Source: Alitta virens
Lineage: Eukaryota; Annelida; Polychaeta; Phyllodocida; Nereididae
Assembly: GCA_932294295.1 (NCBI GenBank)
Contig: OW028575.1
Span: forward strand, 11,084,558-11,148,557
Reading direction: 5' to 3'
Length of the DNA: 64,000 bases
Shown here: piece after piece, positions 478 through 54,377 of the stretch
How positions within the stretch are numbered: position 1 is the first letter of the stretch
Layout: each line of letters begins with the position of its first letter
Notes under the pieces: generated by a model
Seen by the model: the letters and a program-made list of their open reading frames with translations, nothing else
Database searches by the model: none
What the model was told of the DNA's origin: nothing
Translations under genes and position numbers: made by a program

Positions 478-1101
478 ATGATGAGGTTTTTGGTGCTTGG
501 TGTGGCCGTCTTGGCCCTCGCCAGCCCCGGACATGCATTTGGTCCAGACTTGTTTCGCCGTTTCATGGACTCAGTATTGGGAAGCGACTGCGGTGCATTT
601 GGCTGCAAGAGAGACACAGACACAGAAGTATCACGCGCTGTCAGGGATTACGCCGAGGCCCTTCGTGACACCCATGAGATGATGGAACGCAGCGAGGGAG
701 AGGAGACCGCCGAAATGGTGAGGGACCTCCACCGCAGACTCGCTTCTTTTGCAGATGTCGAGGATAACTTGGTCCAGAAGGTCCGCGATCAGTCTCGCCG
801 TTTGGCCGACTACACCAGAAGGGCCTTGGATGAACGTGAAGCCGATCCTCTGGAGAAGACCGTAAGGTCCATCATGGAGTACGCTGAGGAGGCTGAGATG
901 GAGGAGAAGAGGGCTGCCACCAACGAAGTCAAGAGGACCTTGTTGGACCTCCACAAGGACATCGGAGACCTCAAGAAGAGGGATGTGGACCAGATGGAGG
1001 TCAGGGCTCCTCTTGCTTTTGCCAGGAGGGCTTTTGATGAGAAGGAACGTATGACCAGGGCAATCAGCGACCTCTATGAGGCTCTTGAGGAGAAACGATA
1101 A
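478..1101 (+). CDS. Secreted peptide precursor with CGAFGC peptide (gene 1)
   Basis: Predicted 207-residue secreted precursor. Residues 1-20 are a signal peptide (hydrophobic LVLGVAVLALA, cleavage after GHA). Then FGPDLF-RR (27-28) is followed by FMDSVLGSDCGAFGC (29-43) and KR (44-45), so prohormone convertase cleavage would release a 15-residue peptide with a six-residue Cys38-Cys43 ring. Residues 46-207 are highly charged and predicted helical, with further dibasic sites (KR 144-145, KR 152-153, KKR 166-168) and a terminal KR before the stop. I start at 478, not at the in-frame ATG at 460, because TTGCAG at 472-477 is a 3' splice site and the residues before it are intron. The third position is GC-rich, unlike the surroundings, which supports real coding. 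AATAAA follows at 1293. I do not recognise the family; a neuropeptide, hormone or defence peptide are all possible. The core is shared with the genes at 8654, 22184 and 38596. Confidence 0.85.
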   Translation: MMRFLVLGVAVLALASPGHAFGPDLFRRFMDSVLGSDCGAFGCKRDTDTEVSRAVRDYAEALRDTHEMMERSEGEETAEMVRDLHRRLASFADVEDNLVQKVRDQSRRLADYTRRALDEREADPLEKTVRSIMEYAEEAEMEEKRAATNEVKRTLLDLHKDIGDLKKRDVDQMEVRAPLAFARRAFDEKERMTRAISDLYEALEEKR

Positions 1102-1292
1102 ATGAAAAGCAATCATAAGTTACTGTAAAAGTTTTTTTAATTAACATTCAACATTAACATGGTACACTTTTACATGTGGTAGACAAACATTTTACATTAG
1201 GGACATTTTCGTTGTACACTTTTCTAACTGTTTAACTGGGCATGGTGTAACTCATTTGTTATTTGTGGTGGACAAACATAAATGTATATACG

Positions 1293-1298
1293 AATAAA
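1293..1298 (+). promoter_or_regulatory. Polyadenylation signal of peptide gene 1
   Basis: AATAAA, 192 bases after the stop codon of gene 1, is the first canonical signal downstream, followed by TTGTTTCCTGTTGAGTTTG, a T/G-rich stretch. It defines a likely 3' UTR of about 200 bases. Confidence 0.5.
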
Positions 1299-4200
1299 CT
1301 TGTTTCCTGTTGAGTTTGAAGCTGTCTCTTGTGTTGGTTACTCATATCAATCAACATATTTCACGCAAATGTTAGTCTGTAGGCATGTGTGCAATTTCAA
1401 ATTACACTTTTTACAAATCAGCACAACAGTAGCTAACAGTCAGAGCATGAGCCAAAATTGCAGTGACCCGGATTTGGAGCTATGGGATCCCAAACTGTCC
1501 TCGGATGACACCAAAATGGTCTGAAATTGCTGATGCAGACGTAGTGGAGTTCATGCTGGTTTAGAAAGGTTCAAATACACTGTTTGATAGTCCCTAATGG
1601 ACGCACTTCATCACAACAATGGAGCCAATCAATGGAGCATATATTTGAGTTTTAAGAGAACAAACGCAAGTAACAAATGCTTCGCAGTACGCCTATTTCT
1701 TACTTTAAAATTTTCTTTTTTTTTCTGATACACAAATTTCATTCAGAGGGGAAGAAAGGTATAAAAAGCATGCTGTTAAGTAACGGTAATTTACCTGGTT
1801 TAGATGAAGTATAGTAATAACATACTGTATGATACAAATAATGGCAGAGAATTAAAGTCAATTGCCGTAATCACAAATAAAATTCTCTTGAATGATCCAT
1901 TCATAGTCAATCCCATCACAAAATTTAATTTTATGACTCTGAGATATTTAAAATATGTATATTTTGCATGAACAGGTATGATTAAAGCATATAAATTAAT
2001 GTTCTTTGGCAAATGTTTTTGCTGAGTGTAAAAATTAACGAAAACCTTTTTTTTTTTTTTACTTACTCCCCTTATTTAAGTGCACAACACACATTCGATG
2101 TGTCTGTTGAGAAATTATCAGGCAATGCTATTATTAAATAGCACATTGTAAGTCTTCTAATTTCACGGCATTTTTATATCCTAGCAAAGCTTTCAACGTA
2201 CCCATCTGCAAACTGTTAGTTAAGCCATTGTTTCATGTGTAAATATGTATAATTGTTTTCCCATTAAGTCTATTGACTAGTCTCTTTTGACTTAATAGTA
2301 TTTTTTAAAGCATTTGAATAGTTGCTAATGACCAGTGCCAAATCTCGTGATATTGTTCATTCTCTTACAATCTAGATTGAGTAAGTGCACTACTCTTAAA
2401 ATTACAGTGTTTGTGCTAATTTGGAATTTCAGGTGGGTTGACTACTAGTTCTCTCTAGCTAGGCTTGGTTTGATTCAGATTGTTGTAACTTTAGGTAGAT
2501 TAATATATTCCTAGCTTCTGAGTTCAGATTCAGCTCTGAAACAATACACTCCTGCGCTTAAAAAGTGGGCCAAGCCAGTTTTGTGATAAGGGCTTTTGTC
2601 CAACCTTAAAAAAATCAAGCCATTAATTTCTTTGGTTAAACACAGACAAATATTAACATTTCATAAAGATACTGCGCCTTGCCACACAGCAGAGTAAATA
2701 CAAATTCACTCTTACAAATTACTGTCTGTTTCAGACAAATTTTTTGTTTCACTGGTGTCCATCCAAAATTTTGTTTGAGATCAGCCAAATTATTGTTTGT
2801 CCTCAGACATTGAACATGTAAGCTAACCAACTTCATTGTTTGCTATACAGGGGGCCAAAAAAAGGTTGGCCTAGGTAACTGATCACTGATACGAATAAGA
2901 TCAAATTCTCTCGGCGAATCTCCGAGTGACTCATTCCTGTCCCATGGACCATTAGAAAGACATTAATAAGAAACCACAGCATACACATAAACCTCACAAT
3001 AGTTATTCTACCCCACTAATGACAAGCCCGATAATATTGTTTACATAACTAATTTACTTTTCAATTTCTTTATATGAAAATACAAGTTCAAAAAACATGC
3101 ATGCATTTTTTAATCTGTACTAAACATGACATAGTTAGTATCTTTATTTGTTATGATGAAATATATATGTGAAGTAAGATGAGGAGGGGGCAATTGGGAG
3201 TGAGTAGGGCAAAGGGAAGGGGGGCAATTTCGTGGAAAGATATTTTAGTAATGTTCTGTGTAGTAGTCTATGTTTAGGCATTTAGAAATGACCAGCATTC
3301 TAGACTGTCACTAGTACTCTGGATATACATAGCAGTTATTTTGGTACATAAAACTACAACACCATCATAATTTTTAATCTGTTTTTTTTGTTTTTTGTAT
3401 ATATTTTTTTTTCTCATTTATGAATTTTTGTATTTCCTTATTTTCTTAGCAATATCATAATTATAAATGGGAATATATAGGCTATAGGCTCATATACACA
3501 AAAGGCACATTCAGGTCTGTATTTCTTTATTTCATTCTAATAAGAAATAAAGAATTTACATGTAGACCTAACAATTTATTAAACGAAAAACTTTCTAATA
3601 TTAAGTCAGTATAATCTCTCTGGTATGTACTATAGGAAAACCACATGAACCCTGATCTGTTTTGACAGATCAGACGAGGTGGGTGCGTGTATGCACTCCC
3701 CCTAAATAACCAATATTGTGAAAACAATAAACCTCTTCGAACTTTGTTCAATGAGGCTTAAAAATTGATAAATCTATTGTTATTGCCAAAAAAATAGAAG
3801 AAGGCCATTTTATCTACTATCTGCATTCCAAAATTGTATTGCAATAAGTTGACAGGTCTATTGTCAAATATTATATTTTGGACAATATTAATTTCTTCAT
3901 TGTTAAATTTTCTCTGATTTGCCGAGGGTATGCTTTTGCTGCAGCCTATGTTTTTTTATTCACAACTTTATGATGAGGAGTCCAACATAGTTTCGATGGA
4001 TGAGAAATGGTTATGTTGGCCTCAGCAAATCTGAGCCAATATAGGTTTTCCTAATCCCACAAAACTTATGCATTATATGGCTAGCAGAAATTCTGGCTTC
4101 AGAGCCGTGCAATATTTTACTGTATTGCATGGCTATATTGCACAGTAGGTTTTGGTGGCGGAATAATAAGAAAAAAATGTAGCACTACATACGTGTGTAG

Positions 4201-5144
4201 GCCTATGTACTTGTTCAAAGATCTGACTTAAAATAGTTATGCCTACTTTAAGGCTTAATGTCAGAAAACCGCATCGCTCTGTTATTTGTAGAAGCTGAAT
4301 TATGTTATTTCTAAATTTTTGACTGATCTGATGGCTGTCATTAAATTACCTGTGCCTTGCTCTGACTGACGGTTATTTTGGGTATCTATGCCAACAACTG
4401 TTTTCCTCCTTTGCTTCTGCAAATCACTTTATCAGGTGTTGATATTGCCTGCTTGAACCGTGGATCCTCATTTAGGTACCGCATTATCTAAATCCAAAAT
4501 GACGTCTGGTAGAAACTAGGTCGCAACTTGTCTAAATAGTTGTCGCCTGCAGGCACCAACCAATAAGGAAATTTCTGTAAAAAAGGAGTCTGTCCAGCAG
4601 TTCTGCTTCAATTTTAAAACTGAAACAATACAGGACAACATTATTCCATTTTAAACGATTCCATTGTCTTATTGACATAAAATATGGTTGATTCTACAGA
4701 CAGCTATAGCAACCTATTCTTGGCTATATATAGCTATAACTGGCTTTAGCCATCCGCTTTTGTCTTCTCCTAGCTTAAAGTAGGCTTACACCTTCCACCA
4801 CTGAAAAAAATATAAACCATGGTTTTTGTAAGAAATTATCTAATATAAATATTTATGTACATCTTTCAACAAAAAATTACAAATATAAGCAACTCAACTT
4901 ATGCACCAAATAGTGCTGCATTGAATTTACTTTTATATTGGGCTTTGAGTAGCCAGCTATAGCCAGAGTTTCATTTGGTGGCCCCTTTTAAATGAAACTA
5001 AATGTATGTTGAAGGTTTTGGATGGCGCATTTCTTGCAGAAGATAAGGGACAGAAAATAATAGATAACCAGAGTTCGATTCTCACTCCTGAATTTTTCCA
5101 GCTGAAACTAAGATTGACACCTCTGAAGAACCTTTCAAAACTGA
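1299..5144. other. AT-rich intergenic DNA without recognisable gene
   Basis: Only short random open frames. A TATAAAAAG at 1760-1768 has no plausible gene behind it. A purine-rich G tract lies at about 3180-3230. I found no similarity to the tandem array to the right. Nothing else was identified. Confidence 0.5.
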
Positions 5145-5279
5145 AATACCTTTGAAGACAAAAAAACCTCAAAATGCAAAGATGATTATAATGATGATTA
5201 TGATGAATATGATGGTGATTATTATTATTATGACTATTACGATTATGAAGAGTTTCATGATTATTATGATGAAGATTAA
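5145..5279 (+). pseudogene. Possible Tyr/Asp-tail remnant of the peptide family
   Basis: A 44-codon open stretch ending in TAA reads as a Tyr/Asp-rich tail (several DDY, DEY and YYDY groups, ending YYDED), followed by AATAAA at 5376-5381. Genes 2-4 end in YYDDDQ repeats plus a nearby AATAAA, so this looks like the 3' end of a divergent family member. No signal peptide or Cys-containing core could be found upstream: an in-frame TGA precedes it at 5142, and the other frames show nothing convincing. It could also be a last exon with an unrecognised acceptor, or just a GAT/TAT-rich simple sequence. There is no terminal KR. Confidence 0.35.
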
Positions 5280-6977: not shown

Positions 6978-7876
6978 TGCATGGTGTCTACTTGCTGCAG
7001 GTGGTTTTAGTCTGCCAGTTTTGTGCAATATATGATACCCAGGTTCAGCGGTGCCACTGCAGCCAAATTAAGCCTCGCAGGATGCCAGAAATTCATACAA
7101 AAAATTATGGAAAAGGTTAATTATCCCATGTTTTTAGAAGTTTTAAAAAATATATTGAAATATCTGGTGCTATCAAATCAAAGAGTTTGAACCACTGATA
7201 GCTGTTTTAGAAATAAAAACCAGTACATGTACTATTTATCCTTCCAGTTACATGGTTTATTGAATATTATTGATTGTATTTTTTTTGTAAGTCATCCTAC
7301 ATCCAACTTCAACAGTTTTGTTTTTTCTCAAGAGAGAGCATGTTTGTTGTGCTAGTTGAACTGGTTTTAAACATTTCATATGGTTATTTTTTTCTTCGTA
7401 TTATTATAATTTTTCTTTTTTTTAAGTAAATCATCATAGGCTGAAAGCTTTTGATGCAAGGTTCTCATACAAATTATACTGACTTAACCACAGTGCAGAT
7501 TTGACAGATTGGGGTTACTTACAAAACAAGAGAGTGGCACCCTAGTTGTGTGGTGACATTGACAAGTCACAACCTCATAAATGACTAGATCTTTCCATGC
7601 AAAACTGCTGTGTAAATATGCCTATATCCTGTTTAGTCAAAGTCCAAAAAATTTGTTGTTATATGAAAGGACTATTGTTATGCGAAACACATTTAACTGT
7701 CCTACTGGCCAAAGTTTTGCAAAGACGTATTATATTCCACCAGTCTATTTGTGGAGAGCCTATTAAGGAATTAGCCAGATACTGAACCAGTAAAACAGAA
7801 GGTCATACAGCCATATAGCAGCTTATCAATCAGTTCAGTTTTTATCCTACTGTGGGAAAACGACATACTTCATCAA

Positions 7877-7882
7877 GTAAGT
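7877..7882 (+). promoter_or_regulatory. Predicted 5' splice site of a 5' UTR intron (gene 2)
   Basis: CATCAA|GTAAGT is a strong donor. The same site stands before each gene of the array, at 21393, 37806 and 53414, and each gene's ATG follows a good acceptor (TTTCCTACTTCAG). This predicts a non-coding first exon ending here and an intron of about 776 bases (560-790 in the other units). The first exon start was not determined; a weak TATA-like CATATA lies shortly upstream. Confidence 0.45.
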
Positions 7883-8653: not shown

Positions 8654-9076
8654 ATGACGAAACTTGCATTGGTCATCATCACTTTGTTTTTCATTGGCAT
8701 GGCAACGGCTGGACCCATCAAGAAATCTCGCGCAATTCGAGAGTTCTTCAGAGATCTTTCCAAAGGTGCTGTACATGATAAGACAGATGCTGCCAAAGTG
8801 AGAAACAAGCGATTCTTGGACGTTGTTTTGGGTTCTAGCTGTGGATCATTTGGTTGCAATGGAGGAGGAGCCAGCAGCCAACAATATGGAAGCAAGGGTT
8901 TCGAGGACCCTTGGGGAAGAAGTTCCAGTTCATCTAGCTACAGAGACAAATATTATTATGATGATGATCAGTATTATGATGATGATCAGTATTATGATGA
9001 TGATGATCAGTATTATGATGATGATGATCAGTATTATGATGATGACGAAGACAGTGACTATGATGCCAAGCGGTAA
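8654..9076 (+). CDS. Secreted CGSFGC peptide precursor with Tyr/Asp repeat tail (gene 2)
   Basis: 140-residue secreted precursor. The signal peptide is 1-19 (LALVIITLFFIGM core, cleavage after ATA). The basic pro-region is 20-51, ending VRN. KR at 52-53 precedes FLDVVLGSSCGSFGC (54-68, Cys63 and Cys68). Then come NGGGASS, a Gly/Ser linker (69-95), and from about 100 five YY(D)3-4 blocks separated by Gln, ending EDSDYDAKR. Tyrosines flanked by Asp are typical substrates of tyrosylprotein sulfotransferase in the Golgi, so sulfation is plausible (inference). The start is fixed by the acceptor CTTCAG|G at 8648-8653 just before ATG. AATAAA is at 9131-9136. The core matches gene 1 at 11 of 15 positions, although the rest of the two precursors is unrelated. 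The family is not recognised. It is the least expanded tail among genes 2-4. Confidence 0.85.
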   Translation: MTKLALVIITLFFIGMATAGPIKKSRAIREFFRDLSKGAVHDKTDAAKVRNKRFLDVVLGSSCGSFGCNGGGASSQQYGSKGFEDPWGRSSSSSSYRDKYYYDDDQYYDDDQYYDDDDQYYDDDDQYYDDDEDSDYDAKR

Positions 9077-9130
9077 AGATAAAGAGCAAACACTATTTGC
9101 AATACTCATCTCCAATTTACAAAAAGTGTA

Positions 9131-12350: not shown

Positions 12351-12990
12351 TGTATTGGTATGCGTATTTTCCCAAGAGGGAGCAACCTCCTAGACAACCA
12401 CAATTAATAGAGGGAGTTTTAATCACCTTTCACACCTTAATGTTTTTGACAACTTATTGTTATCCACAATATCCTGTACACTTTAAACTGACCTGTAGAA
12501 AGAGCAACACCTGTCAATAGAAGCTCCATATCTATATTCTACATTTATAGACCAAAAAGTAAGTTTAATTCATTACTATTTATTTCTGTGATTGGTATTA
12601 ATTTATATAGGAATCATTCAATTGTATTATTATGGTATTCACTGTATATATTCTAAACTTGCAGTCACTGTTGCTGGGCTGATATAACATGTGGGTCTAA
12701 TGCAGCCTGTCTGCATAATATTGGTATTGAAGCCCTGAAGGCATTGGGATTGTAAGTTTATTTTATACTTCAATTATCATGTTTTTGTCTTACTATATTT
12801 ATTTACAATATTATCTATTGACTATTGTACTGTGCATCTATTGTTATGTGCACATATATTTACTATTATACTGTATATTTGTTCATTTACAATGTGTTCC
12901 ATTTTACAGGGAACTCACCCTCACTCACCTAACTGAATAAAGAGCATTGAGTACCAACATCCTTCGTTCATTTGGCTAGATACCAATACA
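12351..12990 (+). mobile_element. BEL/Pao solo LTR (unit 1)
   Basis: A 640-bp sequence starting TGTATTGG and ending CAATACA, flanked by the 5-bp direct repeat AGTAT (12346-12350 and 12991-12995), as expected for a BEL/Pao target duplication. The same sequence bounds the BEL element in unit 2 with the same AGTAT. An AATAAA sits near the end (about 12938). No internal region remains, so this is a solo LTR made by LTR-LTR recombination after an insertion ancestral to the array. Confidence 0.85.
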
Positions 12991-20056: not shown

Positions 20057-20086
20057 AAAGTGATTCATTACTGGCCATTAATATGT

Positions 20087-22183: not shown

Positions 22184-22645
22184 ATGACGAAAATTGCATT
22201 GGTCGTCATCACTTTGTTTTTCATTGGCATGGCAACGGCTGGACCCATCAAGAAATCTCGCGCAATTCGAGAGTTCTTCAGAGATCTTTCCAAAGGTGCT
22301 GTACATGATAAGACAGATGCTGCCAAAGTGAGGAACAAGCGATTCTTGGACATCGTTTTGGGTTCTAAGTGCGGATCATTTGGTTGCAATGGAGGAGGAG
22401 CCAGCAGCCAACAATATGGAAGCAAGGGTTTTGAGGACCCTTGGGGAAGAAGTTCCAGTTCATCTAGCTACAGAAACAAATATTATTATGATGATGATCA
22501 GTATTATGATGATGATCAGTATTATGATGATGATCAGTATTATGATGATGATCAGTATTATGATGATGATGATGATCAGTATTATGATGATGATGATCAG
22601 TATTATGATGATGACGAAGACAGTGACTATGACGCCAAGCGGTAA
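22184..22645 (+). CDS. Secreted CGSFGC peptide precursor with Tyr/Asp repeat tail (gene 3)
   Basis: 153 residues with the same layout as gene 2: signal peptide 1-19, pro-region, KR 52-53, then FLDIVLGSKCGSFGC (54-68), the NGGGASS linker, and a Tyr/Asp tail of seven YY(D)n blocks (two more than gene 2) ending DAKR. Within the core it differs from gene 2 at two positions (V57I, S62K). ATG at 22184 is chosen over the in-frame ATG at 22163 because CTTCAG at 22177-22182 is the conserved acceptor, so the seven residues before it are intron. AATAAA is at 22695-22700. All functional residues (dibasic site, both Cys) are intact, so it is probably expressed. Function unknown. Confidence 0.85.
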   Translation: MTKIALVVITLFFIGMATAGPIKKSRAIREFFRDLSKGAVHDKTDAAKVRNKRFLDIVLGSKCGSFGCNGGGASSQQYGSKGFEDPWGRSSSSSSYRNKYYYDDDQYYDDDQYYDDDQYYDDDQYYDDDDDQYYDDDDQYYDDDEDSDYDAKR

Positions 22646-24945: not shown

Positions 24946-25312
24946 TGTATTGGTATGAGTATTTCCCAAGAGGGAGCACCCTCCTAGACAACCACAATTA
25001 ATAGAGGGAGTTTTAATCACTTTTCACACCTTAATGTTTTTGACAACTTATTGTTATCCACAATATCCTGTACACTTTAAACTGACCTGTAGAAAGAGCA
25101 ACACCTGTCAATAGAAGCTCCATATTTATATTCTACATTTATAGACCAAAAGGTAAGTTTAATTCATAACTATTTATTTCTGTGATTGGTATTAATTTAT
25201 ATAGTAATCATTCAATGTATTATTATGGTATTCACTGTATATATTCTAAACTTGCAGTCACTGTTGCTGGGCTGATGTCATGTGTGGTAGACGTCTAATG
25301 CAGCCTGTCTGC
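24946..25312 (+). mobile_element. BEL/Pao 5' LTR, 3'-truncated (unit 2)
   Basis: Starts TGTATTGG after the target duplication AGTAT (24941-24945). It matches the solo LTR of unit 1 to CAGCCTGTCTGC, then jumps into internal coding sequence at 25313. The rest of the LTR, the primer-binding site and most of gag are gone, so the element cannot transpose by itself. Confidence 0.8.
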
Positions 25313-25356
25313 CAACGTGCTGAGACAGACAAACTGAGGCCCCTCGATGCCTTTTT

Positions 25357-25971
25357 ATGAATTTTCTTGCCACTGAGAGGGCTTCAGTAGTTCGTCTAGC
25401 TGAGTTGCAAAAGAAAAAAGTGATGCATCAATCTGGGACATTTGCGACTACTGGAGATAGAATGAAGTCAGCTTCCAGTCAAAAAGGCAAGCCTTCTTGT
25501 GCAGTACACAAAGAAAACTCCAAGCATAAGACCGCTGATTGCAATGAATTTAAGAAATTATTGTTGGATGATAAACTCACTGTCTTGCGTAGCGTTCATG
25601 CTAGTTTTGGGTACCACCAATGAGAACATTGTAACAGCAAGGTATATTGCCAAGTTTGTGAAAAATCTGGACATCTTACACTCATGTGCAAATGCTCATC
25701 CAATGATAGTGCATCGGACACCCAAGAATCTGCATCTAGTAGTTGTCACACTGCAAAAACTCCATCAGGTTCGAAGTATGCAATATTTCAAACATTGGTT
25801 GTCAATAATGGCAAACAGGCCAGGATGTTTTGTGACAATGGTTCTAATTCATCATATGTGACACACAAGGCTGCAGCTCGACTTGGTGCCAAGGTGCTTG
25901 GCAAATATAACTTGGATGTCACTACCATGGGTAAAGTTGAGACTGAATACAATACCGCCTTTACAAGCTGA
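25357..25971 (+). pseudogene. BEL/Pao gag end and protease start (unit 2)
   Basis: Remnant of the Gag-Pol polyprotein. After CAVHKENSKH a TGA (25621-25623) interrupts the frame, which continues through a zinc-knuckle CQVCEKSGHLTLMC and then the start of a retropepsin-like domain (DUF1758 type). The active-site motif reads FCDNGSNSS, with Asn in place of the usual Ser/Thr. It ends at TGA 25969-25971; the next part lies in another frame. The 25621 nonsense codon is shared with unit 3 and so predates the duplication. The element is not functional. Confidence 0.8.
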
Positions 25972-25973
25972 CA

Positions 25974-28115: not shown

Positions 28116-28117
28116 GC

Positions 28118-29045
28118 ATGGGCGAGATTCAGAGTGCAACTAATGGTGATATGTCTGGCTGGGCTTGGTTACCAGGAGAACACAATTCTGCTGATCTGTT
28201 ATCCAGGGGATGCTTTCCAGAGCAGTTGAAGTCAGAGTCAGAATGGTGGAGAGGACCTCCAATATTGTATAAACCCATTGAGGAATGGACTCTGAAGTTT
28301 GGCCTCCAAAGGGATGATCCACTACCTGGTGAGAAGAAGTTGGTTGTCTGTTCTGCTGCTGATGCTGTGGTTACACATGGTCTGAGCAGCTGTGTTGATT
28401 ACGCCAGGTACAGTAATGTCCGCAAGCTTATTTGGGTTGTTGCTATGTTAATAACAGTTGTAAGGGCAAAGTCCTTCAAATGTGGGTCTCATAAAGTCAC
28501 GCCTGAATTACTCCATGAGGCAGAGAAATTGATTATGCTTGATGTTCAACGAGATATGGTTGATGAGCTCTCAAAGAAGAATGGTAAGTACTCTGCTCTA
28601 AGACCTACAGCTCAACATGACAATCTTTGGGTTGTGGGAAGCAGGCTACAGAAGTTCAATCCCATGTGTCCTGAATCAGAGGCTCAAGTACTGCTACCTT
28701 CAAACCATGTAATCACACGTCTGTTGATGAAAAATTCTCATGAAGCAAGTGGTCATAGAGGTAGAGACTCGTTTCAGACAAAATTACTGGACTCCACATG
28801 GCAGCAAGCTTGCCTGGTCCATTAAGTCCTCTTGTCAGCTTCGCAAACTTAGGGAACCGAAGCTTTTGACTCAAGAAATGGGCTTACTTCCTGATTCTCG
28901 ACTGAAACCAGCTCCTGCTTTCACCAATGTCATGCTTGATTTGTTTGGTCCGTATAAGGTTAGGGGTGAGGTTAATAAGCGTGTTTTGGGCAAAGTCTAT
29001 GGAGTCATTTTTACTGATATGGTCATGAGAGCAGTGCACATCTAA
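28118..29045 (+). pseudogene. BEL/Pao post-RNase H and integrase N-terminal part (unit 2)
   Basis: Two overlapping frames (28118-28825 and 28740-29045). The first has WLPGEHNSADLLSRG, typical after BEL RNase H. The second has the end of the integrase zinc-binding domain (C..C..LR) and the start of the core (MLDLFGPYKV, holding the first catalytic Asp). The remainder of the integrase core is missing: sequence runs from FTDMVMRAVHI into the C-terminal region, so an internal deletion removed the second Asp and Glu. Confidence 0.8.
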
Positions 29046-29110
29046 GCAGTTTTCAGTTATGATACAAATTCATTTCTCATGGCTCTTAGTCGGTTTGCGA
29101 GCATACGCGG

Positions 29111-29518
29111 TTGGCCAGAGAAGACCCAGGGTCACAATTGGTGGGTGTAGAAAGAGAATTAAGACAAGCTTGGAAAAAACTTGAGGTATCAATTGGTCCA
29201 GATTCTTGTAGATTCATTTTGGAAGAGGTGTGTGCTCCAGCACTCATTTTTCAAAGAAAGTGGCATACTCCATATAGAAACTTGAGACCTGGCGACAGAG
29301 TGATGTTTTCTGACAAAAACTCTTTGAGGGGGGAATTCAGACTGGGTCTTGTCAAAGATGTTGTAAAAGGACAAGATGGCAAAGTCCGCAGAGTTCCTCT
29401 AACATACAAAAATTTCAAAATTCAAGATAAGTTTTACAAAACCACTGAAATGGTGGTAACTCATGCCGTTCAAAGATTGGCCTTACTTGTGCCTGTGGAT
29501 GGTGATGACAGTGTCTAA
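29111..29518 (+). pseudogene. BEL/Pao C-terminal DUF5641 domain (unit 2)
   Basis: Last part of Pol: RNLRPGDRVMF, then RGEFRLGLVKDVVKGQDGKVR and a VQRLALLVPV end are characteristic of the DUF5641 domain that closes BEL/Pao polyproteins. A 3' LTR follows 38 bases after the stop. Confidence 0.85.
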
Positions 29519-29555
29519 TTCTTTAAACCCAATCACAGCAACCCCATCCTCCCAG

Positions 29556-30190
29556 TGTATTGGTATGTGTATTTTCCCAAGAGGAAGCCACCTCCTAGAC
29601 AACCACAAAAATAAAGGGAGTTTTAATCACCTTTCACACCTTAATGTTTTTGACAACTTATTGTTATCCACAATATCCTGTACACTTTAAACTGACCTGT
29701 AGAAAGAGCAACACCTGTCAATAGAAGCTCCATATTTATATTCTACATTTATAGACCAAAAAGTTTAATTCATTACTATTTATTTCTGTGATTGGCATTA
29801 ATTTATATAGGAATCATTCAATTGTATTATTATGGTATTAACTGTATATATTCTAAACTTGCAGTCACTTTGGCTGGGCTGATATAACATGTGGGTCTAA
29901 TGCAGCCTGTCTGCATAATATTGGTATTGAAGCCCTGAAGGCATTGGGATTGTAAGTTTATTTTGTACATCAATTATCATGTTTTTGTCTTATTATATTT
30001 ATTTACAATATCATCTATTGACTATTGTACTGTGCATCTATTGTACTGTGCACATAAATTTACTATTATACTGTATATTTGTTCATTTACAATGTGTTCC
30101 ATTTTACAGGGAACTCACCCTCACTCACCTAACTGAATAAAGAGCATTGAGTACCAACATCCTTCGTTCATTTGGCTAGATACCAATACA
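29556..30190 (+). mobile_element. BEL/Pao 3' LTR (unit 2)
   Basis: 635 bp from TGTATTGG to CAATACA, followed by AGTAT (30191-30195), the same 5-bp target duplication as left of the 5' LTR and as at the solo LTR in unit 1. AATAAAGAGCATTGAG near the end is the element's polyadenylation signal. Confidence 0.85.
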
Positions 30191-38595: not shown

Positions 38596-39057
38596 ATGAC
38601 GAAAATTGCATTGGTCGTCATCACTTTGTTTTTCATTGGCATGGCAACGGCTGGACCCATCAAGAAATCTCGCGCAATTCGAGAGTTCTTCAGAGATCTT
38701 TCCAAAGGTGCTGTACATGATAACACAGATGCTGCCAAAGTGAGAAACAAGCGATTCTTGGGCATAGTTTTGGGTTCTAAGTGCGGATCATTTGGTTGCA
38801 ATGGAGGAGGAGCCAGCAGCCAACAATATGGAAGCAAGGGTTTCGAGGACCCTTGGGGAAGAAGTTCCAGTTCATCTAGCTACAGAAACAAATATTATTA
38901 TGATGATGATCAGTATTATGATGATGATCAGTATTATGATGATGATCAGTATTATGATGATGATCAGTATTATGATGATGATGATGATCAGTATTATGAT
39001 GATGATGATCAGTATTATGATGATGACGAAGACAGTGACTATGACGCCAAGCGGTAA
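38596..39057 (+). CDS. Secreted CGSFGC peptide precursor with Tyr/Asp repeat tail (gene 4)
   Basis: 153 residues, nearly identical to gene 3. Visible differences are K43N in the pro-region (DKT to DNT) and D56G inside the peptide core, giving FLGIVLGSKCGSFGC (54-68). That Asp is present in genes 1, 2, 3 and even the pseudogene, so the change is notable. KR 52-53, both Cys, and the seven-block Tyr/Asp tail ending DAKR are kept. The start at 38596 follows the conserved acceptor; the upstream in-frame ATG at 38575 is intronic. AATAAA is at 39107-39112. Function unknown. Confidence 0.85.
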   Translation: MTKIALVVITLFFIGMATAGPIKKSRAIREFFRDLSKGAVHDNTDAAKVRNKRFLGIVLGSKCGSFGCNGGGASSQQYGSKGFEDPWGRSSSSSSYRNKYYYDDDQYYDDDQYYDDDQYYDDDQYYDDDDDQYYDDDDQYYDDDEDSDYDAKR

Positions 39058-40420: not shown

Positions 40421-41234
40421 AATACAAATCTTAAAGGGTTATTTTGTATGGAATGATTTCCCACAATAACCTGTATACCACATAGAAAAGCCATGTGGTA
40501 TAGCCTATGTGGTATACATATCTATACCACTTGGTTTACCTTGCATGTATGGCAGGCCAATGACAGGACATCACTATTTACAGATAAGCACTTTGCCGCT
40601 TGTAATAGCGCCATCACTTCAAAACGATTGTCGGAATCAAATAATGAAAACCATTACAGAGATAAATTATTGAGGTTTCTATAAAAGTTGAATTTTTAAA
40701 ATCGGACCAGAAATAATGACTCTGGAGGGCAAAATGTGATATAAAGTCAATGCATCTGTTCAGTCCACAGATACTAGCTATTGTGTATCTCTGTTGCCAA
40801 CAGCAACGTCATAGTAGCGTCATTGCTTCGGTAAAACAAACGGACTTAACTGCACAATAAATAATTTTCTTACCTAATCTGCCATAAAAGCTAATTCTAA
40901 GGGGAAATTTTCAACAACTGGTTAGTAAACATCAGTCATAAATTGCTTTGTTAATCTTAAAATGACTGTGGAAGATTTGAAGTGATGACATTGTATTCCA
41001 GTTTTGTAACGTCATGTAGTGATCTGATTGTTTGATAGCAATGATTAATATTCATGACTTTTTTCATACCACATGAAAATGCATTGAACATAAGGTAATA
41101 TATTGCTAATTATAAACAGAAACTGCTGAATGGGTTGAGCATGGCAATACAATGATCAAATATTTAATAATTGTATGCACATGAATTGTACAACGTGCTG
41201 AGACAGACAAACTGAGGCCCCTTGATGCCTTTTT

Positions 41235-41819
41235 ATGAATTTTCTTGCCACTGAGAGGGCTTCAGTAGTTCGTCTAGCTGAGTTGCAAAAGAAAAAAGTG
41301 ATGCATCAATCTGGGACATTTGCGACTACTGGAGATAGAATGAAGTCAGCTTCCAGTCAAAAAGGCAAGCCTTCTTGTGCAGTACACAAAGAAAACTCCA
41401 AGCATAAGACCGCTGATTGCAATGAATTTAAGAAATTATTGTTGGATAATAAACTCACTGTCTTGCGTAGCGTTCATGCTAGTTTTGGGTACCACCGATG
41501 AGAACATTGTAACAGCAAGGTATATTGCCAAGTTTGTGAAAAATCTGGACATCTTACACTCATGTGCAAATGCTCATCCAATGATAGTGCGTCAGACACC
41601 CAAGAATCTGCATCTGGTAGTAGTCACACTGCAAAAACTCCATCAGGTTCGCAGTATGCAATATTTCAAACATTGGTTGTCAATAATGGCAAACAGGCCA
41701 GGATGTTTTGTGACAATGGTTCTAATTCATCATATGTGACACACAAGGCTGCAGATCGACTTGGTGCCAAGGTGCTTGGCAAATATACCTTGGATGTCAC
41801 TACCATGGGTAAAGTTTAG
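41235..41819 (+). pseudogene. BEL/Pao gag end and protease start (unit 3)
   Basis: Carries the same internal TGA as unit 2 (about 41499) before the zinc-knuckle, the same DNG protease motif, and a private GAG-to-TAG nonsense codon at 41817-41819. Confidence 0.8.
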
Positions 41820-41851
41820 ACTGAATACAATACCGCCTTTACGAGCTGACA

Positions 41852-43408
41852 TTGAAGACAAAGACAGGTCACAGTGTACCTATACTGGCTTTTGGTATGA
41901 AACCGATTACAAGTTCTGTGTCAATCCTTGACACTGATTGTTTAAAGAAACTCTTTCCAGACAGAAATACATCACTTCTACATCGGAAGTCTACTCAAGT
42001 GGATATTCTTCTGGGATGTGACTACTTTGGCCTTCATCCGAAACATGAGATCTGTAAAGCTGGAAGTGATCTCAGTATCATGGAAGGAGAACTTGGGATT
42101 TGCTTGCAAGGCTATCATCCTGAGTTAAAAGAAAATACAGTGGTCAGCTCTGATATGGTCCGAGTGTTGCACAGCAGTCAACTTAGATCAGATTGTCACT
42201 TGACTCGTCTTTTGAGTCACCCTGAATTTAGTCAACCATTCTCACAAGTCGAAAATTCAGCTTCTCATAAAACTGAAGTAAATGCACTGTTGTCTAAGTC
42301 TGACTTGGGAGTACAGAATTTCATTCAAGGTGAGGAGTTGGCAACTGAAGTGAATCCAAAGTGTGGGGGATGTCGATGTTCAAAATGTCCCACAGTAGGG
42401 CATACATACTCCTTCAAAGAAGTGCAAGAGCAGAATTTGATTTGTGACAACCTTAGCTGTGATGCGGATCAGAAGTGTTGGATCACCAAGTATCCCTGGT
42501 TGGCTGACCCTATGGACTTGCCTGACAACTATGGTGCAGCTTTTGCAACACTGAAGAGTACTGAGATGACTCTAAGGAAGGATCCAGTCTGGGCTGAAAA
42601 ATACAAGGAGCAAATTGAAGACATGCTTGGTAGGAAAGTTGCTCGTTGTTTGACTAATGATGAATTGCAGTCATGGAAAAGCCCCAAGTATTACATTAGT
42701 CATCTTGCTGTGAAGAATGCACATTCTCAATCTACTCCAGTGAGGATTGTCTTCAATTCGAGCCAAGTTTGTCATGGCGTTTCTTTGAACTCAGTTCTGG
42801 CCAAGGGACCTGATGCCTACCTCAACAACCTTATAGGACTTCTCCTGAGATGGTGTGAACAATGTGTAGCTATAGTGGGTGATATTAAGAAGATGTTTAA
42901 CTCAGTTCATCTTGAACCACTTGAGCAACACTGTCATAGGTTTTTGTGGCGAGATTTGGACACTAGCAAGAAGCCTGAAGTCTACGTGATGACATGGGTG
43001 AACATGGGGGACCGGCCAGCTCCAGCCATTTGCACTGAAGCCCTGTATATGACTGCTGACAAGTTTGAATCTGATAGCCCTGTTGCTGCTGGAGTGGTGA
43101 GACGATCAACTTATGTCGATGACATCCTGGACTCTTTTGTTGATGAGGATATGGCTCTGCAAGCCACCAGTGATGTTGAGTCTATGTTGGCTAAAGGTGG
43201 ATTCAAAATAAAATGTTGGCAATTGAGTGGTAATGTCAGGGCTACTTCAGAATCACAGGATTCTGGTGTGTGTCTGCTGAAAAGTGATGGACAAGACACA
43301 AGAGTTCTGGGTATTTCATGGTCACCTGAGTCCGATGTTATGACATTCACAGTTGTGTTGAACTTCTCGCCGAAGAGGAAAGGTGAAAGGACTGGAACAA
43401 GCCTCTGA
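41852..43408 (+). pseudogene. BEL/Pao protease end and reverse transcriptase (unit 3)
   Basis: 518 uninterrupted codons. The stop that breaks unit 2 before the catalytic box is absent here (CGA at 43103-43105), and YVDD is at 43112-43123. The frame breaks at about 43400, where 8 bases are missing between two ACAA repeats. The RT fold is thus better kept than in unit 2, but the element has no 5' LTR and no complete integrase. Confidence 0.88.
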
Positions 43409-43985
43409 TGTTCCTATAGCTGTACCGGTGGTTTTGACCAGAAGAATTGTCCTGCAACAGGTAATAATGCTCTTTGATCCTTTGGGATTCATTTGTCCTT
43501 TCACTCTCCTTGTAAAAATTAATTTGGGGGAAACACGGTCTTTGCGATTAGGATGTGATGATCAATTGCCCGAAAATGTGCATGCAAAGTGGTTGCAATT
43601 CTTCACTCACCTGACTGAACTGGAGAGTATTCAATATAATAGGAGTCTTCACCCACCAACTGCAGTCAAGGCTGGGCCTAGTTTGATCATCTTTTCAGAT
43701 GCCAGTGACACAGCTTATGGCTTCTCATCTTATGTTAGATGGCAACTGGAAGATGGACAGTTTTGGTGTAGACTTATTATGGCAAAATCAAGGATTGCAC
43801 CTCTTCGAAAGCTCAGCACTCCACAAATGGAACTGAATACTGCTGTGTTGTCAAAGAGAGGAAGAAAGGTCATTGAAAAGGAAATGAGGTTGAACTTTGA
43901 TAAGATTCTCCACATTGTGGACTCTGAGACTGTCTTGAACATGATTCACAAGACAAGCACTAGATTCAAGATATTGAAGGCGTAA
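43383..43985 (+). pseudogene. BEL/Pao RNase H (unit 3)
   Basis: Continues the polyprotein after the 8-base deletion: thumb/connection region then RNase H with the Asp-Glu-Asp residues (FSDAS, PQMEL, HIVDSE) as in unit 2. Ends at the same frameshift. Confidence 0.82.
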
Positions 43986-43987
43986 GC

Positions 43988-44915
43988 ATGGGCGAGATTC
44001 AGAGTGCAACTAATGGTGATATGTCTGGCTGGGCTTGGTTACCAGGAGAACACAATTCTGCTGATCTGTTATCAAGGGGATGCTTTCCAGAGCAGTTGAA
44101 GTCAGAGTCAGAATGGTGGAGAGGACCTCCAATATTGTATAAACCCATTGAGGAATGGACTCTGAAGTTTGGCCTCCAAAGGGATGATCCACTACCTGGT
44201 GAGAAGAAGTTGGTTGTCTGTTCTGCTGCTGATGCTGTGGTTACACATGGTCTGAGCAGCTGTGTTGTTTACGCCAGGTACAGTAATGTCCGCAAGCTTA
44301 TTTGGGTTCTTGCTATGTTAATTACAGTTGTAAGGGCAAAGTCCTTCAAATGTGGGTCTCATAAAGTCACGCCTGAATTACTCCATGAGGCAGAGAAATT
44401 GATTATGCTTGATGTTCAAAGAGATATGGTTGATGAGCTCTCAAAGAAGAATGGTAAGTACTCTGCTCTAAGACCTACAGCTCAACATGACAATCTTTGG
44501 GTTGTGGGAAGCAGGCTACAGAAGTTCAATCCCATGTGTCCTGAATCAGAGGCTCAGGTACTGCTACCTTCAAACCATGTAATCACACGTCTGTTGATGA
44601 AAAATTCTCATGAAGCAAGTGGTAATAGAGGTAGAGACTCGTTTCAGACAAAATTACTGGACTCCACATGACAGCAAGCTTGCCTGGTCCATTAAGTCCT
44701 CTTGTCAGCTTCGCAAACTTAGGGAACCGAAGCTTCTGACTCAAGAAATGGGCTTACTTCCTGATTCTCGACTGAAACCAGCTCCTGCTTTCACCAATGT
44801 CATGCTTCATTTGTTTGGTCCGTATAAGGTTAGGGGTGAGGTCAATAAGCGTGTTTTGGGCAAAGTCTATGGAGTCATTTTTACTGATATGGTCATGAGA
44901 GCAGTGCACATCTAA
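43988..44915 (+). pseudogene. BEL/Pao post-RNase H and integrase N-terminal part (unit 3)
   Basis: Same layout and same internal integrase deletion as in unit 2. The first integrase catalytic Asp is replaced by His here (LHLFGPY, codon 44808-44810), and the frame before it ends earlier at TGA (44669-44671). Confidence 0.78.
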
Positions 44916-44928
44916 GCAGTTTTCGGTT

Positions 44929-45363
44929 ATGATACAAATTCATTTCTCATGGCTCTTAGTCGGTTTGCGAGCATCACAATTGGTGGGTGTAGAAAGAGAA
45001 TTAAGAGAAGCTTGGAAAAAACTTGAGGTATCAATTGGTCCAGATTCTTGTAGATTCATTTTGGAAGAGGTGGACGGAGTTATGTGCTCCAGCACTCATT
45101 TTTCAAAGAAAGTGGCATATAGAAACTTGAGACCTGGCGACAGAGTGATGTTTTCTGACAAAAACTCTTTGAGGGGGGAATTCAGACTGGGTCTTGTCAA
45201 AGATGTTGTAAAAGGACAAGATGGCAAAGTCCGCAGAGTTCCTCTAACATACTAAAATTTCAAAATTCAAGATAAGTTTTACAAAACCACTGAAATGGTG
45301 GTAACTCATGCCGTTCAAAGATTGGCCTTACTTGTGCCTGTGGATGGTGATGACAGTGTCTAG
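44929..45363 (+). pseudogene. BEL/Pao C-terminal DUF5641 domain (unit 3)
   Basis: RNLRPGDRVMF and following residues as in unit 2, with small indels upstream. A premature TAA lies at 45253-45255 and the original end at 45361-45363 now reads TAG. Confidence 0.78.
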
Positions 45364-46192
45364 TTTTAATCACCTTTCACACCTTAATGTTTTTGACAAC
45401 TTATTGTTATCCACAATATCCTGTACACTTTAAACTGACCTGTAGAAAGAGCAACACCTGTCAATAGAAGCTCCATATCTATATTCTACATTTATAGACC
45501 AAAAAGTTTAATTCATTACTATTTATTTCTGTGATTGGTATTAATTTATATAGGAATCATTCAATTGTATTATTATGGTATTAACTGAATATATTCTAAA
45601 CTTGCAGTCACTTTGGCTGGGCTGATATAACATGTAGGTCTAATGCAGCCTGTCTGCATAATATTGGTATTGAAGCCCTGAAGGCATTGGGATTGTAAGT
45701 TTATTTTATACTTCAATTATCATGTTTTTGTCTTATTATATTTATTTACAATATTATCTATTGACTATTGTACTGTGCATCTATTGTACTGTGCACATAA
45801 ATTTACTATTATACTGTATATTTGTTCATTTACAATGTGTTCCATTTTACAGGGAACTCACCCTCACTCACCTAACTGAATAAAGAGCATTGAGTACCAA
45901 CATCCTTCGTTCGTTTGGCTAGATACCAATACAAGTATTACTGTACAAAATTGCATTAGGGAATGTGTATAATGTTCGAGTTCTGCTCCGGAAACAAAAG
46001 TGTTTTGCAATAGAAAAATATGATTAATTGAGTAGAATAATTTTGCCATGTAAAAAAAAAGACTCCCCTGCAAACAGTTCATTGTCAATCTTCTACAACC
46101 TCTCATCAATCACAGTTTGTAGTCAACTTGCCATTGAATGGAATTTGTAAAAAGCATATTGATCAAGAGTAATATATTGGTAATTTAACACA

Positions 46193-47196
46193 TGAATTGA
46201 CACTGAACAGTACTTTTTTCATAATTTTTGCAAAGAAAATGAAATCGGCCTACATTGTACAGCGTTCAGTGTCTCATATCACCTTTTCTTTGTATATAGG
46301 AGGGACTCTTGCATATTTCAAATCATTAGGTAAAATACCACTTCTAAGTTACAAATTGGAATCTTTAGTTTACAATCAAATATCAATCTAATTTCAAAAC
46401 AAGCACAGAACAAAACCTCAACTGATTTAACATCTTCAATGTTTCAATTTCTAGTACATCAAGCTCAGATAAAATATAGGAATTCGAGTCCCCGTTAGAC
46501 GAATTATTTTCTCACTGTGCTGAAACATTATGTCCCTGTTCATTGCACTTTCAAAAGTGAGGCCTCCACCCCTCCTCCCTTCGACACCACTCGAAGGATA
46601 AGTTGTCTTCATGATACGATGTGGTCATATATCACTTAGTCAAATTAGCATTATGTATTAAATCATCACTGTCCATGGCAGACAGATCTTTTCTTGAATT
46701 GACACTGAACAGTACTTTTTTCATAATTTTTGCAAAGAAAATGAAATCGGCCTACATTGTACAGCGTTCAGTGTCTCATATCACCTTTTCTTTGTATATA
46801 GGAGGGACTCTTGCATATTTCAAATCATTAGGTAAAATACCACTTCTAAGTTACAAATTGGAATCTTTAGTTTACAATCAAATATCAATCTAATTTCAAA
46901 ACAAGCACAGAACAAAACCTCAACTGATTTAACATCTTCAATGTTTCAATTTCTAGTTCATCAAGCTCAGATAAAATATAGGAATTCGAGTCCCCGTTAG
47001 ACGAATTATTTTCTCACTGTGCTATAACATTATGTCCCCGTTCATTGCACTTTCAAAAGTGAGGCCTCCACCCCTCCTCCCTTCGACACCACTCGAAGGA
47101 TAAGTTGTCTTCATGATACGATGTGGTCATATATCACTTAGTCAAATTAGCATTATGTATTAAATCATCACTGTCCATGGCAGACAGATCTTTTCT
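46193..47196 (+). repeat. 502-bp direct tandem duplication inside unit 3
   Basis: 46193-46694 is repeated as 46695-47196, almost identical. Both start TGAATTGACACTGAACAGTA and end CAGACAGATCTTTTCT. Units 1 and 2 have a single copy, so this is a recent private event. Confidence 0.9.
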
Positions 47197-49312
47197 TCTC
47201 CCCATAGAAAAACTGCTGCTGTGTAATCATGTCGATGGTCCTGTTCAAAGATTGAATTGAAATGATTTGTTAACTATATATATATATATATATATATGAG
47301 TAACCTCGAATTTGTGTCAAGGCGCGCCACCGTTTGGACCTCGATCGTACCATGCCCTACCTCATTCTTTTAAAAATAATAGTTCATCACATCATACTGA
47401 ACAACCACATCAACATGACAAAAACACATTGCACAACCCACAAACACCCCCCTCATCATCACCCAATCCATCATCATCCACACCATCAACATCTAATACA
47501 GAAATCAATAAAATTGATGAACCATCATCCCATGATGATGATAAATACAGTGACTAAAACACGGAAGACACCCGGAAAAGATAAATGAAAAAGACCATTA
47601 ACAAAATCAGATCTTTGATTAAAAAAAATTTCTTTTTGTCAATCATTCTGACATTCAGGCTCATTGATAAGCTTGATTAGACGTCTTGGTTATTTTTTAC
47701 ATTAAATATTGTTTTTCTGTCAACATCTGCATCAAACTTAAATTTCACTCCGAAACAAGTTGTGGTGTTGAACAAATTCCGATAAATACCATTAACAAGA
47801 ACACCACACACAGGCAATGTGATTCCCCTTGTTAATAACATCTGCTGCCATTGTTTCCCCAAAAAATATAATCTAAACCAATGTTATGAACACTGAGCCT
47901 CAAAATATCATCAAAGCATCAGTCTACAGCAGTATCATTGGATTATCGTCTTATGTGGTTTTGCAAACACCGCAACAGTACATTGAATTATTACATACTA
48001 TATTTCCAAAGTGTAGGCTAAATATAAACTGCTGTTGCCATCATTGGGAGCAATCACTATACACTGTCCACTTTTTAAGGAACTGTGAAGCTGAAATTTA
48101 TTAGTTTCTTGGCAGAACATCCTGAAACAACGAAGAACCTTCATAGCTCATTGACCAAATTCATGAATCTCTGTGATAAAATAAAACGTGTCAGGTGATG
48201 GCCAGGATTAGTGCAAAAAGGGGACTTGTCACTTCAACCATACCAGTGTTACTCGTAAGTGAGAAGTTTTCATGGTAATTGGCATGATAGATACCATCAA
48301 GATAATGCTTTAATGTTAATCAGTGCTATGACATTAGACCAGAAAAAAATTATGTGCTGAAAACAGCCTCTCAATAGGCTAACAAGGGTGTCTTTTAACA
48401 ATTGAAAAGGTATGTTCTGTTTTCTAGCAATGATAATTGGTAGGTGACAACAGTGGCATATTTAGGGGGGGGGGGGGGGGGCTAATGGGCCATGGCCCTG
48501 CCCCCCTAGCTTGGACCAAAAAACAATCAAGAGAAAATTAAGGCATGAACGGCTCAGACGAAAGGCTGCAAAATGCTATTTATTGGTTAGAATGAATGAA
48601 ATTTACCAACATATTGAGGGCACAAAAGACCAATATGTCATATACCCTCCTTGATATAATATTTTGTGCAACCCTCCTCCATGAATACAAATTTTAGGCA
48701 TAATGCCTGTCCAATATCTAGCTTTTTCTGGCCCAGTAGTACACAACTGCTCATTTACCCAGTGCATAAAACCACACACAGCTAGAAAATAACTGGCCGG
48801 TAGTTATATGGAATTTCACATGTAAAATATGACCGTAAAGCAGTAAATATACTTGTTCTGGGAGCTTATTCCTTGGATACAGTGCTGATCGGTTATAAAA
48901 TGTGATGTTCTCTGTAACCACAGAATACAGAACTCCAGTTCTTGGTCTGTAATCATGCTCAATTGAATTATACCTGTCCTACCAGGCACCAGCCATGATA
49001 CTTATTCCATACTTTTGCTAATAGAAGTATAGACCAAAAAAATATATAGGATGTGAATGTGTTATTTGTAACAATATAGACTTATTATGAATCATTGACA
49101 AGAAGGATTGTCTTCTTGTTACCCATGAGGGGTATCATTGAAAGTTAGTCTTCTGCACTACATCAATGTACAGTATTTGTTCTGTCTACTTTACCTGTCA
49201 TTTAACTTTGCCTCCGGAGCCACTTGCAATTTAAATTACTTCTAATTCTTCTTTTTTTCCATGAGATTTGTAATCTTAAATATAGATATGCCAATAGTCT
49301 TGTTTGGAGTCA

Positions 49313-50879: not shown

Positions 50880-51674
50880 AATAAAGTAAATACAAACCTT
50901 AAAGGTTCATTTTGTATGAAATTATACCCAACATATTTATGTGGCATAACATTGTTTAGAATTTCATATATATTCCTTAGGATCATTGCTATAACCTATA
51001 TATATATGACTATTTTTGACATATAAAAGATAATCTTAGTTGTAAATTAGTTAAGGGAACATGCTATTGTGTTGATAATTCTAGCGAACTGAAACTCCTT
51101 ATTGTGCATAAAATCTTTGAAACATAACAATTAAATTGAGGAAAAGGATATACAATACATTTATGCTCACTTGACTTTACTCTAAACAGAATGGATTGCT
51201 GTTAATACAGGGTTCCGGTAGCTTTACCTTCATAAGAAGTAAGATATTTGTAAGACATTATAATATCATGCGCACATGAAAAATAAGACCACTAATGTAG
51301 TAATATACACCAATTTTTTTTTTACTTTCATTATACAAAAAACAATCAGGTTATTGGCTATTAAGCAATAAAATAAATGCAGTTCTTGCATATTTAAAGA
51401 ATTCTACTCATTCATATTTACCAAATCATCTGAATTTTACAATGTGGATGTTAATATCTAACTTAGGCATATTTGCATCAAAATAAGACAATGTGAGACT
51501 TAGTGGACAAAAGTAAGACTTAATACTGGAACACTGTATTGTTTCACACTTTTAAAGAGTTAAAAAAATAGGACATCTTGGAAGCTAATTTGCATTGCGT
51601 AACAGGCTATGTAGGCCAAGTGGCAATTATTTCGGTTCATTGCACACACTATATTAACACTCCAGAAATAATAC
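50880..51674 (+). repeat. Repeat X, plus orientation, near-complete (unit 3)
   Basis: Reverse complement of unit 1 10070-10736 with moderate divergence. In units 1 and 2 the equivalent place has the left end of X, then LINE sequence, then the right end of X. Unit 3 therefore shows what X looked like without the LINE, but it lacks the right end, deleted up to the poly-G block. Confidence 0.7.
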
Positions 51675-53413: not shown

Positions 53414-53419
53414 GTAAGT
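53414..53419 (+). promoter_or_regulatory. Conserved 5' splice site before the pseudogene
   Basis: GTAAGT conserved as in units 1-3 although the coding region is broken. Predicted intron about 560 bases to the acceptor at 53972-53973. Confidence 0.4.
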
Positions 53420-53974
53420 AACCGATTGTATTTAGATGTGTTTTTAAACATTCCTAATGCTCAGGCCATTCCAAAATTGATGGACAACTATGCAAATATT
53501 AAGTCAGTAAGCCAGGGCTAGGTAAATTATGGTGGTAACAAGCCTCCTAAGTTTCTCATAGCATGGGATTTCTATACAGATGGTCTTGATTTTGGCGTCT
53601 GGCATCATTATCCCATCTATCCTTTCGCAAATAAAATTACCAAATTAGTCACTGTAAAAGTACAAAGTTTCTGCAATATTTTGGTTAAGCAAAGTAGTAA
53701 CATTGGTGAAAGAAATTAAACTGAAGAAGCAAAGTTAACAATATACCTATATGAAAAGACTATGATATAATCTTTTCCTTGAAGGAGGGGCTGTACAGTG
53801 ACCCCCCCCCCCCATGTTCTTTAACTTAGTTACAGCCACTCTTGCCAGTTACAAAATATATTCAATTCTTTAAAAGACCTGATAGCTGCACTTGGCATAA
53901 TTTCAACATCTGCCAAAATACATTTGTAAACCCTAATTCTCTTCTTCAAAAACTTGTTCTTTTCCTATTTCAGG

Positions 53975-54377
53975 ATGACGAAACTTGCATTGGTCATCAT
54001 CACTTGGTTTTTCATTGGCATGGCAACAGCTGGACCCATCAAGAAATCTCGCGAAATTCGAGAGTTCTTCAGAGATCTTTCCAAAGGTGCTGTACATGAT
54101 AAGACAGATGCTGCCAAAGTGAGAAACATGCGACAATTGGACTTCATTTTTGGGTCTGAATGCGGATCATTTGGTTGCAATGGAAAAGTCAGCAGCCAAC
54201 AATATGGAAGCAAGGGTTTTGAGGACCCTTGGGGAAGAAGTTCCATTTAATCTAGCTACAGAGACTAACATTAATGATGATGATGATGATGATGATTATG
54301 ATGATGATGAGTATTATGATGATGATGAGTATTATGATGATGATGATGAAGACAGTGACTATGACGACAGGCGGTAA
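53975..54377 (+). pseudogene. Degenerate CGSFGC peptide precursor (gene 5)
   Basis: The signal peptide and pro-region resemble gene 2, but the dibasic site before the peptide has become Met-Arg (AAG to ATG), and the core reads QLDFIFGSECGSFGC, losing the first Phe. An in-frame TAA at 54248-54250 ends the open frame after 91 residues, another TAA follows, and the Tyr/Asp tail (to 54377, ending DDRR) now lies in a different frame. AATAAA is at 54429. The two Cys and GSFG ring are kept. Probably non-functional as a peptide source, although a truncated secreted product of 91 residues cannot be excluded. Confidence 0.75.

Follow-up and report, generated by a model that had tools for sequence, protein, structure and literature searches.

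We analysed 64 000 nucleotides of chromosome 3 (the window, positions 11084558–11148557) from the king ragworm Alitta virens, a nereidid annelid. Five genes in it encode putative secreted precursors that share a short core ending in a candidate disulfide ring. A six-frame scan finds the CG[AS]FGC ring five times, always on the plus strand and each time in an open frame with a hydrophobic leader (the leaders of all precursors were assigned by eye). Given the base composition, 8.8e-10 chance occurrences in the window are expected for a pattern of 12 positions that was derived post hoc from the cores. Three of the precursors (t1, t2 and t3) bear an intact Tyr/Asp tail, a fourth (t4) is broken and the fifth, gene 1, continues into a charged helical tail, which is the set described by the first-pass annotation of this stretch. 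As it also stated, the core of the intact copies directly follows a dibasic site in a precursor of secreted type (RR in gene 1, KR in t1–t3), and two Cys stand four residues apart in every core, as for a six-residue ring. The 'same 15-residue core' that it saw is in fact five different sequences in the window, the ring being constant and the first nine residues varying.

Gene 1 (478–1101, plus strand) has one coding exon for 207 residues: a hydrophobic leader, RR, the core FMDSVLGSDCGAFGC (562–606, plus strand; residues 29–43), KR and a charged region of 162 residues with a net charge of −11. No other gene of the window has its core bounded by dibasic sites at both ends. The tailed precursors lie on the same strand at 8654–9076 (t1, 140 residues; core FLDVVLGSSCGSFGC at 8813–8857), 22184–22645 (t2, 153 residues; core FLDIVLGSKCGSFGC at 22343–22387, residues 54–68) and 38596–39057 (t3, 153 residues; core FLGIVLGSKCGSFGC at 38755–38799), with RNKR immediately ahead of each core. 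In all three, a leader and pro region of 53 residues in total closes with K-V-R-N-K-R; after it come the core, a linker rich in Gly and Ser, and Y-Y-D-D-D-Q-like units, of which there are 4.7 in t1 and 6.8 in t2 and t3. The truncated t4 (53975–54250, plus strand, 91 residues) begins like the intact copies and has its core QLDFIFGSECGSFGC at 54134–54178, with the ring at 54161–54178; a stop precedes the tail, and a leftover of the tail repeat lies past this stop (54274–54349, plus strand). The NKR of the intact copies is NMR in t4, and the remaining R-N-M-R is still compatible with the minimal furin motif, RxxR. It may be added that the GC content at third codon positions is 0.66 in gene 1 versus 0.38 in t1 and t2, which suggests that codon bias or expression level differs.

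Two further tailed genes were found elsewhere on chromosome 3, and protein searches of the genome agree with both: t0 (11066714–11067067, minus strand; core FLDVILGTDCGAFGC), about 17.5 kb before the window, and t5 (24398394–24398783; core FIDVVFDSNCGSFGC), 13 Mb from it. Beyond the genome, a search of 5.8 billion proteins returned one homologue of the tailed type, P0001 (E = 1.9e-17, 53% identity; the sole match among seven candidates), and two of gene 1, P0002 (E = 8.4e-83) and P0003 (E = 1.0e-49), these being two matches among 3465 candidates. A profile built from both precursor types recovered P0001, P0002 and P0003 again, together with P0004 (E = 0.27, weak alone), in which RRFMDLMGSECGAFGCKR precedes a stretch resembling gene 1. 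The core is flanked by dibasic sites on both sides in P0002, P0003 and P0004, and on the N-terminal side only in P0001. Searches of viral contigs with gene 1 and with the tailed type found no relative, and neither did one of prokaryote genomes, for which gene 1 was the only query.

Within the genome, protein searches with P0001, P0002 and t5 gave no members beyond gene 1 and t0–t5; these searches score the best candidates only, so that the member counts are lower bounds. P0002 retrieved gene 1, the only copy of its type detected, and a weak match at t0 (E = 0.07), and t5 retrieved the six tailed loci, the next match being unconvincing (E = 3.3). The pattern TGYGGNWSNTTYGGNTGY, which misses gene 1 and t0 because their ring reads CGAFGC, occurs at 44 genome sites, compared with 20 for a reversed control. 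Four of them are t1–t4; of the other 40, 18 were read in context and yielded one member (t5) and 17 non-members. Among the sites rejected was L014, where KR stands a few residues ahead of the ring in a short open frame but there is no leader or other likeness. Separately, a stretch of repeated DNA on contig 1 (76855589–76923265), with many steps of about 5.8 kb, carries CGRFGC at each pattern site, probably by chance.

The seven worm cores and the four database cores can thus be compared. All 11 have C10, G11, F13, G14 and C15, and A or S at position 12. F1, D3, G7 and S8 are kept in ten of the 11, positions 4 and 9 are variable, and the cores of P0003 and P0004 are one residue shorter. The resulting family form is F-[LMI]-D-x-[VIL]-[LMF]-G-S-x-C-G-[AS]-F-G-C. 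The narrower consensus of the first-pass annotation fits four of the five window cores, t4 being the exception, and only 5/11 of all those collected. Between t2 and P0001, identity is 13/15 in the core and 24/53 in the signal and pro region.

How much weight these likenesses bear depends on their independence. The genes t1–t4 sit in four tandem segmental duplicates (6978–54825, with unit starts near 6978, 20521, 36934 and 52765 and start-to-start spacings of about 13.5, 16.4 and 15.4 kb), and the aligned pieces between units are 79–98% identical. Divergence in the 5′ flanks is 1.5% of sites between t2 and t3, 3.9% between t1 and t2, and 8.0–8.7% between t4 and the others. Their mutual likeness is therefore not independent, contrary to the first impression of repeated cases, and reflects for the most part recent descent. 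Inside the window the only independent comparison is that of the tailed type with gene 1; independent support for the family comes from t0, t5, P0001, P0002, P0003 and P0004.

The bodies of the two precursor types do not align convincingly outside the core, a tblastn search with P0001 or t2 against gene 1 covering only about 17–18 residues. At the DNA level the core of gene 1 is identical to those of t1–t3 at 30–31 of 45 positions, so the split between the two types is old. On the other hand, at each of the seven worm loci a CAG ends 0–1 base ahead of the ATG and is preceded by a stretch of at least 60% pyrimidine (t0 lies exactly at this threshold). The same test is passed by 25 of the 1527 ATGs of the window, and five of these 25 are gene 1 and t1–t4. 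We infer a noncoding first exon followed by one coding exon at the worm loci. This shared acceptor-like site, together with the chromosomal nearness of the genes, favours a common origin of gene 1 and the tailed type with replacement of the C-terminal part, rather than convergence.

The tailed genes are also coding and constrained, since in the signal–pro region t0 and t1 differ with a synonymous divergence (dS) of 0.69 and a nonsynonymous divergence (dN) of 0.22, and the rings of t5 and t1 differ by four synonymous and no nonsynonymous changes. The first nine core codons behave differently: 12 of 27 sites differ among t1–t4, compared with 126 of 1003 in the noncoding flank (p = 6e-5), and the excess is weaker among the three intact copies (5/27 versus 60/1242, p = 0.01). 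We do not claim positive selection here, as Nei–Gojobori (NG86) estimates for these nine codons give high values of both dN and dS on tiny counts and the signal–pro region of t4 has diverged less than its flank; gene conversion or relaxation may explain the excess.

None of the known families searched accounts for these proteins, in line with the first-pass annotation, which had recognised none. No Pfam match above the cut-off was obtained for gene 1, t0–t5 or P0001–P0004, the best for gene 1 being Bestrophin-like (16.6 bits, the cut-off being 32, and 21.4 bits when a shortened piece is searched). NCBIfam gave no match for the five family proteins searched, and PDB sequences none for the t2 core region at E values up to 10. 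Three PDB sequences match gene 1 at E = 0.05 or worse, and we take them as coiled-coil or chance likeness. An AlphaFold2 model of gene 1, built from three sequences, has a mean predicted local distance difference test score (pLDDT) of 44.5 and was not used. Searches for the core strings through full paper texts (figures and supplements lie outside this search) returned nothing relevant; the inspected occurrences of GAFGC or GSFGC, in partial text, belong to an ATPase peptide.

The six-residue ring nevertheless invites comparison with known peptides. With the urotensin II family, including Aplysia apUII, the ragworm precursors share the Cys-x4-Cys ring, dibasic processing and a secreted precursor. 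However, the family ring reads C-[FL]-W-K-[YV]-C (CFWKYC in urotensin II and CLWKVC in apUII; PMC3493602) and the peptide sits at the C-terminal end of its precursor (PMC8398477), whereas the ragworm ring is CG[AS]FGC in 11/11, without Trp or Lys, and its core lies near the N-terminus (gene 1) or in the middle of the precursor (tailed type). The likeness is thus one of ring size, as the first reading of the sequence had it. The vasopressin/oxytocin (vasotocin/conopressin) precursors also combine a six-residue Cys ring with, as in gene 1, a peptide that precedes a longer C-terminal part. Their peptide opens with the first ring Cys (residue 1) and has the second at residue 6; a Cys-rich neurophysin comes after it. 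In the ragworm cores the Cys are residues 10 and 15, with eight or nine residues between the cleavage site and the first Cys; gene 1 has no further Cys after the core, and Pfam detects no neurophysin in any of the 11 proteins. We therefore rejected membership of both families on ring motif, peptide position and the lack of neurophysin. The annelid GGNG excitatory peptides are small and have one disulfide, but the GGNG end and the larger ring that mark them are absent from the ragworm cores. Finally, the sea cucumber peptide Ajn23 (precursor Ajnp23) and a starfish relative have 20 residues with two Cys four residues apart (PMC6586643). The resemblance is one of description only, and Ajn23 lies near the C-terminus of its precursor, unlike the ragworm cores (PMC6586643). 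The ring chemistry is of a known kind, while the family assignment and the delivery on two bodies appear new as far as our searches reach.

The dibasic sites suggest different processing of the two types. In t2 they are KK 23, KR 52 and KR 152, with none between the core and the last two residues, and t1 and t3 read likewise. The free 15-mer that had been expected from the tailed genes is therefore not what their sites predict; a dibasic site before the core only suggests a product whose head is the ring and whose tail is acidic and rich in Tyr. After removal of the leader from both types, furin or a prohormone convertase would cut directly before the core and the two Cys would join into a six-residue disulfide ring. 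In gene 1 a second cut at KR would release the free 15-mer FMDSVLGSDCGAFGC with its C-terminal Cys free (computed [M+H]+ of the cyclic form, 1506.57). The tailed type would stay uncut after the core, the predicted t2 product being about 100 residues long with a net charge of −24 and 18 Tyr. Tyrosine sulfation usually occurs where Tyr adjoins acidic residues, so this tail may be sulfated; alternatively, a protease of another kind could trim it. The acidic tail and the helical region may serve sorting or carrier functions.

We favour the reading that these genes form a family of secreted disulfide-ring prepropeptides with two precursor types, most probably regulated-pathway messengers (a neuropeptide or peptide hormone with a receptor), and we put the chances of this reading at about even. 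The messenger role is the likeliest one but unproven, and its basis is the architecture and the conservation of the ring: gene 1 and P0002–P0004 combine a putative leader with a dibasic-bounded peptide, t2 and P0001 having the dibasic site N-terminally only. Several observations weigh against it. Two hallmarks common in neuropeptides, an amidation Gly and repetition of the peptide, are missing, and in the tailed type no dibasic site follows the core. Variation among t1–t4 in the first nine residues of the core is not what a tightly constrained ligand would show, although t4 is possibly dead. The seven-of-seven count for the CAG site includes t0 and t5, whose start codons were chosen as the Met after CAG although both have earlier in-frame Met codons. 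Moreover, the idea of a conserved core amid unrelated bodies holds for the ring, kept in 11/11, and less well for gene 1 as a whole: its core is identical to that of P0003 at 10/15 positions and to that of P0004 at 11/15, where other 15-residue blocks reach 14 and 13, respectively. The downstream part therefore has a conservation of its own and may include further active pieces.

The tails invite another explanation, namely that the tailed products are secreted structural or adhesive proteins of mucus, tube or cuticle. Their Tyr/Asp tails would bind calcium or be cross-linked by way of modified tyrosine, and the ring would be an assembly element. The tail repeat number varies while its composition is common to t0–t3, t5 and P0001, so the tail seems to work by composition, and t2 lacks a dibasic site from the core up to the very end of the precursor. 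We consider this unlikely, as gene 1 bears the ring without such a tail and has two-sided dibasic sites that are kept in P0002–P0004. The tandem array, and the surplus of changes at the start of the core (its first nine residues), would also suit a defence peptide, in which an amphipathic N-terminus and a C-terminal Cys loop act on microbial membranes and the array diversifies; a hydrophobic start and a terminal Cys loop likewise recall the frog Rana-box peptides. These antimicrobial peptides are cationic. Of the nine ragworm-family cores computed, by contrast, seven are negative, that of t2 is neutral and only that of t3 is positive (range −2 to +1), and the whole t2 product has a net charge of −24. 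We therefore rejected a cationic Rana-box-type peptide and regard the defence reading in general as quite improbable.

It is similarly doubtful that the family is already catalogued. Platynereis is also a nereidid, and one of its Cys-bearing proneuropeptides specific to that genus (for example WLD, SHM, RNT, SLL-1 or SLL-2) could be the orthologue. The Platynereis neuropeptidome comprises 98 reported precursors, and the study names 11 Cys-bearing, disulfide-capable precursors without orthologues outside Platynereis (PMC3890597). The core strings are absent from the paper texts searched, however, and the names are unlike FLD or FMD except for WLD, which shares two letters, a comparison made by name only. 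We regard the genes as a real, constrained and apparently undescribed family of secreted ring-peptide precursors; as the comparison with the Platynereis-only precursors covers their names and the paper texts searched, novelty is unproved.

Within the messenger reading, a more specific scheme can be put forward tentatively, and we think it improbable as a whole. In an undescribed annelid peptide system, one ring pharmacophore would be delivered in two forms by paralogous genes, as a free cyclic 15-mer (from gene 1) and as a head tethered to a long, sulfatable Tyr/Asp polyanion, and local duplication would change the nine residues before the constant ring, tuning receptor choice.

The DNA around the genes holds further features. 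BEL/Pao-type retroelements lie in the t2 unit (24946–29914) and the t3 unit (about 41191–45657); in the latter Peptidase_A17 exceeds the Pfam cut-off and RVT_1 falls slightly under it. The t1 unit has a single long terminal repeat (LTR)-like copy (12351–12714) with matching flanks on both sides, as for a solo LTR, and the t3 unit includes a 502-base tandem duplication (46193–47197, 99.2% identity). At 56799–59392 there are broken reverse-transcriptase open reading frames (RVT_1 at 57240–57641) and one more frame without a Pfam match, which we take to resemble a DIRS-type element. Outside the tandem units, a plus-strand open frame at 5144–5279 ends in the Tyr/Asp-rich KDDYNDDYDEYDGDYYYYDYYDYEEFHDYYDED; no core was found nearby and a competing open frame overlaps it, and it is possibly a remnant of a further family member.

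If confirmed, these genes would give the nereidids, for which Platynereis provides an in-depth neuropeptide catalogue, one more peptide family and probably a receptor belonging to it; the exact sequences, mass and loci are supplied here for peptidomics and receptor screens. They would also provide a case in which one ring peptide is carried by two otherwise unlike precursor bodies that lie close together on a chromosome.

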